20,718 nt of DNA from a virus. How positions within the stretch are numbered: position 1 is the stretch's first letter; the number at the start of each line of letters is the position of its first letter. Both the position numbers and the translations under genes were made by a program. The DNA lies in the IMG/VR virus record IMGVR_UViG_3300023284_000304, positions 1 through 20,718 of that record; one strand, given 5' to 3'. Positions 11,165 through 18,687 of the stretch are shown in pieces. Under the pieces are notes generated by a model. The model was given only the letters and a program-made list of their open reading frames with translations. It searched no databases and had not been told where the DNA came from.

Positions 11165-11369
11165 CGCTACTTGGTTGGCATGGATACCTCAAGACATTGG
11201 TTTTTATGCTTCAATATTTGGGTGGGCATTGTCTGCGGTTCTTATTTATACAAATATTATAGGCAGTAGATCAAGGCGAAAATTAAATGATATACAATTT
11301 GATGTGGCAATGATGGAAAAAGAGAAGTTACGCGCTGAATTAGATGAAATCAGAGAAAAGAATGGGTGA
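11067..11369 (+). CDS. Putative holin (two transmembrane helices, class II-like)
   Basis: The 100-residue product has two hydrophobic helices (about residues 20-40 and 44-66) joined by a short turn, then a basic patch (GSRSRRKL) and a highly charged coiled-coil tail (EKEKLRAELDEIREKNG). This is the usual plan of small phage holins, which let the endolysin reach the cell wall. The endolysin gene follows and overlaps it. The ATG has no clear ribosome site and lies within the upstream zinc-ribbon gene, so translation is probably coupled. The holin call is from topology and context. Confidence 0.7.
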   Translation: MTLKHVVTEYAPTVLQSPKVALSVSGGTIATGSATWLAWIPQDIGFYASIFGWALSAVLIYTNIIGSRSRRKLNDIQFDVAMMEKEKLRAELDEIREKNG

Positions 11370-11712
11370 CATATCAGAGCATTTCAATAGATCAGAATTC
11401 GCCTGTAAATGTGGATGCGGATTTGACACTGTAGACGCTGCCACATTAGATATTCTTGAGGATATCCGTACCCACTTTAAATCACCAGTTAAAGTAACAT
11501 CCGGTTGTAGGTGTGAGACTTACAATAAGACGGTAGGAGGCAAGAAGTCCAGCCAGCATTTAAAAGGTCGTGCTGCTGATATCCAAGTGGAGGGACATTC
11601 TCCTATTGCTGTTGCTGAATATGCTCAATATTTAATGCCTGATTGGGGCGGTATTGGGTGTTATAATACATTCACGCATATTGATACTCGAACGGGTAAA
11701 GGGAGATGGTGA
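11362..11712 (+). CDS. Endolysin, peptidase M15 family (zinc D,D- or L,D-type peptidase)
   Basis: The 116-residue protein matches the M15_3 type. It starts ISEHFNRSEFACKCGCG and has SSQHLKGRAAD (S-x-H-x-x-G-x-A-x-D), giving His66 and Asp73 as zinc ligands, with the third ligand at His106 in HIDTRTG. Such enzymes cut peptide cross-links in peptidoglycan and occur widely as phage endolysins. No signal peptide is seen, so release depends on the holin. The start at 11362 (overlapping the holin stop at 11367-11369) follows a purine-rich AGAGAAAAG. An in-frame ATG at 11344 would add six residues and lacks a ribosome site. Confidence 0.9.
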   Translation: MGDISEHFNRSEFACKCGCGFDTVDAATLDILEDIRTHFKSPVKVTSGCRCETYNKTVGGKKSSQHLKGRAADIQVEGHSPIAVAEYAQYLMPDWGGIGCYNTFTHIDTRTGKGRW

Positions 11713-17525: not shown

Positions 17526-17767
17526 TGTGTGAATGGACAACTTGTGAACAGTCAGGACAGCAGTGGTTAGATGCTCTAGGCGGCAGATTCTGGCTATCAG
17601 GTGGCATAGGGGTTATTTGGATCCTGGTCAAGGTCACAGTAGACGCAGCAGGGCCAAATGAATCAAACCCCGTTAGGTTTGCTACAGAGTTACGGGCTAA
17701 AGATTGGGTAAAATATCTGCAAGAAAAACAGACTAAAAGCCCAAGAGTCGTCAGTGAGTTATTTTAA
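17525..17767 (+). CDS. Small protein with a hydrophobic segment, unknown function
   Basis: The ATG at 17525 (sharing a base with the upstream TAA) is preferred to an in-frame TTG at 17510, because TAATG coupling is the rule in this operon. The 80-residue product begins MCEWTTCEQSGQQW and has a Trp/Gly/Val-rich hydrophobic stretch (FWLSGGIGVIWILVKVTV, about residues 22-39) that may cross the membrane. A charged helical end (ELRAKDWVKYLQEKQTK) follows. It is the last gene before the C4-like RNA promoter. Confidence 0.65.
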   Translation: MCEWTTCEQSGQQWLDALGGRFWLSGGIGVIWILVKVTVDAAGPNESNPVRFATELRAKDWVKYLQEKQTKSPRVVSELF

Positions 17768-17790
17768 TTATGTTATAGGACTGTTATAAT
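17762..17790 (+). promoter_or_regulatory. Extended -10 promoter for the C4-like RNA and replication gene
   Basis: A perfect TATAAT (17785-17790) is preceded by TGT, forming an extended -10 (TGTTATAAT). A weak -35 (TTTTAA, 17762-17767) lies 17 bases upstream. Transcription would begin about 17797, at the base of the structured RNA. Confidence 0.7.
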
Positions 17791-17794
17791 GCTT

Positions 17795-17858
17795 ATGCGG
17801 CGCAAGGGAGTAGCTATCCTTGTTCACGCCTACCCCTTTCGGGCAAGCCGCATTCCAA
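17795..17858 (+). ncRNA. C4-like antisense RNA (phage P1/P7 C4, P4 CI RNA type)
   Basis: Directly behind the promoter, ATGCGGC (17795-17801) pairs with GCCGCAT (17847-17853). This encloses a CAAGG/CCTTG hairpin (17803-17807 with 17818-17822) and a C-rich stretch CCCCTTTCGGGC (17833-17844). CCCCTTTC is complementary to GAAAGGGG at 17880-17887, the ribosome site of the replication gene, and in part to GAAAGGG at 17865-17871. G-U pairs extend both duplexes. C4-type RNAs of P1, P7 and P4 work this way, with a single-stranded stretch complementary to leader sequences just downstream. Translation control of the downstream gene is inferred. Family membership is recalled from memory and not searched. 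Confidence 0.65.
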
Positions 17859-17863
17859 CCAGC

Positions 17864-17887
17864 TGAAAGGGCGCAATTTGAAAGGGG
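17864..17887 (+). promoter_or_regulatory. Paired antisense target sites overlapping the ribosome site
   Basis: TGAAAGGG occurs twice, at 17864-17871 and 17879-17886, 15 bases apart. The second copy is the Shine-Dalgarno of the DUF1376 gene (AAAGGGG, 6 bases before ATG 17893). Both are complementary to CCCCTTTC in the C4-like RNA, so pairing would cover the ribosome site. Confidence 0.6.
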
Positions 17888-17892
17888 ACTCC

Positions 17893-18687
17893 ATGCACTA
17901 CTACCAATTCAATATTGGTGACTATCATAGCCATACCGGTTATTTGTCACTGATGGAAGATCTAGCCTATAGAAGGCTTCTAGATCAATACTACCTTCAA
18001 GAAATTCCACTACCTTCAGACGCTAAAGAAATAGCCCGCAAGATTGGCATGAGCGACTATTTAGAAGAAGTTGAACAAATATTAGCTGACTTCTTCACTC
18101 TTAACGATGCTGGCGAACACATAAACAAGAGAGTAGATGAAGAAATCTCTCAATATCGCGCAAAGGCAGACACAGCAAGGGTTAACGGGAAGAAAGGCGG
18201 AAGACCTAAGAAACCGGATAGCAACCCAGAAGAAACCCAACAGGAACCCAGAAAAACCCAGCCGGTTATTTTAGCTAACCCAGAAGAAACCGGATTGAAA
18301 GCTAACCAAGAACCAATAACCAATAACCAAGAACCAATAACCAAAGAAAAGATTAAAGACATGTCTCCGCTAGAAGCGGATACGAAGTCAAAGGTTCCAT
18401 ATTCTAAAATTTTAGATCTATATCATTCAACACTCCCAGGCCATCCACAGATAAAAGTCCTCTCTGAAAAACGAAAAGCTCACATCAGACAGACCTGGAA
18501 AAACTACCTAAACACATTGGAGGATTGGGAAGAGTATTTTAGGATTGGAGTAGCTACTAATAATTTTCTATCTGGCAAAGCTGTTCCTGTGAACGGGCGT
18601 AAACCTTGGATAGCTGATTTTGATTGGCTGATTAACCAAAACAACGCGATCAAAGTAAGTGAGGGGAAATACAATGAGCAAGTTTAA
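17893..18687 (+). CDS. DUF1376 replication-initiation-type protein
   Basis: The start at ATG 17893 is behind AAAGGGG. An in-frame TTG at 17878 lies inside the leader. Of 264 residues, 1-85 match DUF1376: MHYYQFNIGDYHSHTGYLSL, EDLAYRRLLDQYYLQE and DFFTLNDAGEHINKR. A basic patch NGKKGGRPKK follows. Residues 109-150 form a Pro/Glu/Gln linker encoded by iteron-like repeats. The C-terminus (from about 168) contains KILDLYHSTLPGHPQIKVL and ends near WIADFDWLINQ, like primosome-type replication proteins. The role is probably origin binding and helicase loading, analogous to lambda O. Expression is probably limited by the upstream C4-like RNA. Confidence 0.82.
   Translation: MHYYQFNIGDYHSHTGYLSLMEDLAYRRLLDQYYLQEIPLPSDAKEIARKIGMSDYLEEVEQILADFFTLNDAGEHINKRVDEEISQYRAKADTARVNGKKGGRPKKPDSNPEETQQEPRKTQPVILANPEETGLKANQEPITNNQEPITKEKIKDMSPLEADTKSKVPYSKILDLYHSTLPGHPQIKVLSEKRKAHIRQTWKNYLNTLEDWEEYFRIGVATNNFLSGKAVPVNGRKPWIADFDWLINQNNAIKVSEGKYNEQV
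18223..18344 (+). repeat. Iteron-like repeats inside the replication gene, candidate origin
   Basis: AACCCAGAAGAAACC occurs exactly at 18223-18237 and 18277-18291. The variant AACCCAGAAAAACCC lies between them at 18245-18259. A 21-bp unit is then repeated perfectly in tandem (18303-18323, 18324-18344), built of AACCAAGAACC and AATAACC. All copies lie in the linker of the DUF1376 gene on an A/C-rich strand, as the lambda origin iterons lie inside the O gene. Confidence 0.55.

Follow-up and report, generated by a model that had tools for sequence, protein, structure and literature searches.

The window analysed here, a stretch of 20,718 nt (20.7 kb) from IMG/VR virus record IMGVR_UViG_3300023284_000304 (record class 'linear'), raises the question of how its phage controls a replication gene. 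An initial annotation had placed a C4-like antisense RNA in front of this gene, with its ribosome site as one of two pairing targets, and had assigned the phage a T7-like virion; the latter agrees with the T7-like tail and internal virion proteins that we identified in the window. Elsewhere in the window, a gene for a class 3 lipase-like protein (PF01764; 11850-12467) lies just 3' of an M15 peptidase gene (11344-11712).

The regulatory segment extends from the end of an 85-codon ORF at 17767 to the ATG at 17893, the most likely start of the DUF1376 gene (17893-18687, plus strand, 264 aa from this ATG). An alternative start, the TTG at 17878 chosen by the ORF lister, falls within the second of the target sites described below. 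The protein matched PF07120 (E 8e-21), and its PHROG assignment was primosomal protein and replication initiation O-like; both matches agree with the earlier view that the controlled gene encodes a replication initiator.

Promoter, folded RNA and target sites in the window

Reading the plus strand directly, we found an extended -10 promoter, TGTTATAAT, at 17782-17790; a good -35 was looked for and none was found. The predicted start of transcription, at about 17795-17797, coincides with the first bases of a 59-nt structured RNA element (17795-17853) that was defined by its fold and by covariation among relatives. The element consists of three helices: the 7-bp closing stem P1 (ATGCGGC at 17795-17801 with GCCGCAT at 17847-17853), the hairpin P2 (CAAGG at 17803-17807 with CCTTG at 17818-17822, loop 17808-17817) and the hairpin P3 (GCC(U) at 17828-17831 with (G)GGC at 17841-17844). 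The apical region of P2, GGGAGTAGCTATCC (17806-17819), is a signature loop common to int-alpA-like elements, and the P3 loop, ACCCCTTTC (17832-17840), forms an antisense segment complementary to two sites downstream. No terminator follows P1, that is, none lies between the element and the DUF1376 gene. On re-reading, every statement of the initial annotation about the sequence itself (extended -10, 7-bp closing stem, internal hairpin) held.

Target 1 (T1), CTGAAAGGG, occupies 17863-17871 and was predicted to form a 9-bp pairing with the P3 loop, G-U included, at -14.4 kcal/mol. Target 2 (T2), TTTGAAAGGGG, occupies 17877-17887, contains the Shine-Dalgarno sequence of the DUF1376 gene and ends 5 nt before the ATG; its 11-bp pairing of 17833-17843 with 17877-17887, described previously, is exact when terminal G-U pairs are counted, at -15.7 kcal/mol. 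The fold prediction that had been proposed alongside these duplexes returned P1, P2 and P3 together as the minimum free energy structure of the element (-21.0 kcal/mol). The stability of this fold is unexceptional when the element is taken alone (z -1.2), so the comparative evidence weighs more.

Each target holds one of the two GAAAGGG sites downstream of the element, in keeping with the two complementary copies reported earlier. The exact 8-mer TGAAAGGG occurred only twice in the 20.7 kb window (17864-17871 and 17879-17886), a count that is weak evidence alone, as at least two copies were present in 16 of 100 shuffles. A chance origin of the complementarity, in an ordinary leader, could be argued from that non-significant count and from the readiness with which purine-rich Shine-Dalgarno sequences pair with pyrimidine loops. 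We also scored the P3 loop, as one unit, against the 41 nt that lead to the start codon. The resulting two-site score of 44 was matched by 2 of 20,000 shuffled targets and 14 of 20,000 shuffled loops, and was reached by 4 of 5,908 other 41-nt stretches of the window.

Conservation of the design and matching of loops to targets

A protein search with the DUF1376 protein yielded 80 loci, in most of which the DUF1376 start codon is directly preceded by a P1-P2-P3 element that has a promoter of its own and targets downstream. The placement had been called unusual by the initial annotation; this was mistaken, since dozens of DUF1376 phages share it. Both targets lie downstream at near-constant distance in most elements. 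Across 15 relatives, the 18-bp structure was paired in 99.6% of cells, compared with 40-52% when it was slid, and 38 double changes showed covariation in P1, P2 and P3; among 62 matches, 12 of 16 pairs had compensatory changes. In four loci (L026, L034, L035 and L079), a distance of about 270 nt or 1 kb separates the element from the DUF1376 gene downstream, and the element there probably controls an intervening gene. In three others (L003, L023 and L073), the DUF1376 ATG is immediately preceded by a different element, a long hairpin that resembles a terminator and has a T-run. A more distant upstream segment (e.g. TTGGCGG) is the complement of the inner loop of this hairpin (e.g. CCGCCAA). 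This leader looks like a second, attenuator-type control of the DUF1376 gene family.

BLAST of the window element against phages, plasmids and E. coli returned chance matches only, and a pattern search for its own subtype found one true relative, L002; the other matches to the pattern lacked the helices or the targets and were rejected. L002 shares 83% DNA identity with the window over 17785-17923 and retains the RNA and both targets, the changes in its T1 preserving the pairing through G-U. The protein encoded behind this conserved RNA is only 39% identical to the DUF1376 protein of the window.

In most DUF1376 leaders, the P3 loop varies from phage to phage and the targets vary with it, so that loop and targets of the same phage stay matched. 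The loop CAGACCC stands opposite GGGTCTG and GGGTCT in one leader (L008), TTCCCACTT opposite AAGTGGGAA and AAGTGGG in another (L030), CACCTTT opposite AAAGGTG and AAGGTG in a third (L010), and TCGTTAC opposite GTAACGA in a fourth (L021). A few elements, such as L012 and L040, have a single convincing target, and in a subgroup including L016 and L036 the T2 pairing is just 4-5 bp. For nine group representatives of the 41 distinct DUF1376 leaders, loops paired with their own targets gave a summed score of 270.5, compared with 199 ± 19 when targets were swapped, and none of 20,000 permutations reached the observed value; stricter subsets of the leaders gave z of 3.6-5.2. An absence of conserved complementarity in related phages had been named as grounds for abandoning the antisense proposal, and this result strongly favours it. 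The two-site pairing of the window was the strongest among the 41 leaders.

An unbiased set was assembled by a motif search that disregarded the downstream gene, giving 164 distinct elements with helices. They were grouped by greedy non-redundant sets, as single linkage merged nearly all loops, and in ten non-redundant subsets own targets exceeded swapped ones with z of 5.5-7.8. About a third of these elements precede DUF1376-like genes; among the proteins encoded after the remaining ones, O-like or primosomal replication proteins and HNH, AP2 and GIY-YIG endonucleases are frequent, and a tail chaperone and other genes also occur. Of 161 elements, 56 had a TANNNT positioned 17 nt before CGGCTAG, where 1.3 would be expected, and the -10 abuts P1.

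T1 and T2 are direct repeats adjoining a replication initiator, so they could serve as binding sites for a protein or as replication-origin iterons, their complementarity to the loop being incidental. We consider this very improbable: across phages, the repeats and the loop vary in concert, and elements of this kind also stand before homing endonucleases, a tail chaperone and other genes, for which reason the origin idea was dropped. Chance complementarity appears less credible still in view of the permutation results, the conserved architecture, the placement of the promoter and the common P2 signature loop.

Relation to int-alpA, C4 and CI RNAs

At E<=10, Rfam scans gave no match, whether run on the entire window or on 17700-17960 alone. 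The C4 model (RF01695), whose use had been suggested as a check, likewise detected nothing in 17700-17960 at E<=10, nor was any match obtained in 40 related records, whereas its positive controls P1 and P4 scored 68.8 and 74.9 bits. The proposed C4-like character stands as regards the C4/CI layout, with a closing stem, a hairpin and a second hairpin bearing the antisense loop, but does not extend to membership of RF01695. As in C4, P1 of the window element encloses two hairpins, the second of which carries the antisense segment in its loop. As in C4 and CI, this loop is complementary to a downstream Shine-Dalgarno sequence and to a second site, and the RNA forms part of the leader of an operon for phage immunity or replication. 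In P4 CI, read directly, the P3 loop AUCCUGUGAA is complementary to TTCACAGGAGG, the Shine-Dalgarno just downstream, and to ATTCACAGG upstream. The P4 CI RNA is processed from a longer transcript and pairs with seqA and seqC, stopping expression of the replication genes (PMC4825925), and c4 RNA pairs around the ant ribosome-binding site (PMC12197685). The window element differs in that its P1 has 7 bp, compared with about 17 bp in C4/CI, in that both targets lie downstream, whereas P4 and P1 have one target upstream of the RNA (a1b1 or seqA), and in that the target is the replication initiator itself. Two target or leader elements accompany C4/CI in P1 and P4, namely c4-a1b1 (RF03163) and isrK (RF01394); the Rfam scan found no copies of either in the window.

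The nearest Rfam family is int-alpA (RF02996) rather than C4, and it matches the relatives, not the window element. Of the 40 related records, 12 scored above the cut-off and 28 matched at E<=1, nearly every match coinciding exactly with the element that precedes DUF1376; the window had no match at E<=1 or E<=10, and the L002 element had none. A covariance model of the int-alpA-like relatives (R1), trained with the window left out, gave no match to either element; with filters off, only P2 of the window aligned, at 4.5 bits. Since both elements miss the int-alpA model and R1, we do not file them as int-alpA members. They share with int-alpA the three-helix architecture, the characteristic types of P2 loop and matched targets, whereas their junctions are TTCAC and AAGCC, compared with GAAAA and CCTGCC in int-alpA. 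In 3.13 Mb of loci, which were fetched for holding such elements and the bulk of whose sequence serves as background, GGAGTAGCTAYCC occurred 12 times, always in P2 of such elements, and the P2 loops of the window (GGAGTAGCTATCC) and L002 (GGATTGATCCCC) were otherwise found only in such elements. Our reading of these sequences is that the two represent a divergent subtype of int-alpA-like elements.

The int-alpA family reportedly originates from Weinberg et al. 2017. The literature searched gave no function for it and lists it in STEC genomes without more. Matched targets also accompany int-alpA members that the Rfam model, rather than the motif, detected above the cut-off in bacterial genomes, though not all of them: in L390 the loop TCACTCA goes with TGAGTGA and GAGTGA, and in L406 CGCCTTAC goes with GTAAGGCG and GTAAGGC. 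At L083:2320-2386 on the reverse strand (record 641509472), an int-alpA RNA over the cut-off lies just before a 165-aa gene for a putative HNH-type endonuclease, and the DUF1376 gene of that phage has no int-alpA element. Two E. coli prophages (L418 and L419) carry an int-alpA-like RNA directly before small late-region genes, a DUF551 gene or a hypothetical one; similar DNA was present in 50 of 5,426 E. coli genomes, and these prophages would be convenient for laboratory work.

We surveyed the P2 loops of the elements in loci L089-L296 and at 17808-17817 of the window. Apical loops with 6-nt palindromes (UAGCUA, UAAUUA, UCAUGA, UGAUCA) made up 26 of 55 distinct loops, compared with 6.4 in shuffles (maximum 15 in 1000 shuffles). 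Speculatively, such loops would allow kissing dimers.

Proposed antisense control of the replication initiator and its meaning

The segment would be the 5' leader of the replication-initiator transcript and would also encode a small antisense-type RNA. Transcription would start at P1; P1, P2 and P3 would fold, as the comparative folding of relatives supports, and present the P3 loop, which would pair with T1 and T2, a step supported by the co-changing loops and targets. T2 covers the Shine-Dalgarno sequence, so pairing of the loop with it would keep ribosomes off the DUF1376 gene and limit phage replication. The element is very probably a real off-switch, because many phages have the same design with different matched loop-target pairs. 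With no terminator between element and gene, the RNA would probably be cut from the leader, as in C4 and P4 CI, and may act on other transcripts too; such action in trans would provide dosage feedback as well as immunity to phages that share its loop. We assign a probability of about 0.68 to this reading, in which an antisense RNA of the C4/CI type would block translation of the replication initiator and, probably after being cut from the leader, act also on other transcripts.

Alternatively, the leader may be a switch acting purely in cis, its P3 loop pairing with T1 or T2 of the same mRNA by a pseudoknot or refolding, so that the Shine-Dalgarno is hidden or exposed, perhaps in response to ribosomes, a protein or temperature, and no separate small RNA is made. 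The near-constant downstream distances of both targets in most elements fit such a switch, as does the lack of a terminator after P1, and for the window leader the minimum predicted in cis is the one with the loop-T2 helix (-31.6 kcal/mol, compared with -24.4 for P1+P2+P3). However, that helix would break P1, which is conserved and covarying, and a simple cis lock needs no two targets per loop. The known C4/CI RNAs of the same architecture act as antisense RNAs, CI being cut from a longer transcript; this P4 parallel, the two targets and the promoter abutting P1 favour a separate RNA. We regard the cis switch as rather unlikely.

These results suggest a testable function for int-alpA, and indicate that control of the C4/CI type, known from P1, P7 and P4, has a far commoner cousin directly on replication-initiator and homing-endonuclease genes. 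As a tentative and wider idea, which we think has a lesser chance of being right, int-alpA and its relatives, the window subtype included, may form a single large class of phage antisense RNA cassettes whose P3 loops can be exchanged. Each loop would be matched to its own target pair, and the replication initiators and homing endonucleases would thereby fall into groups of incompatibility or immunity; palindromic P2 loops would let two RNAs kiss and sit on tandem sites, like a dimeric RNA repressor. If the RNAs act in trans, copy-number feedback and superinfection immunity of the phages would be governed by the varying loop-target pairs, as incompatibility is by plasmid antisense RNAs, and immunity groups would be readable from sequence alone.
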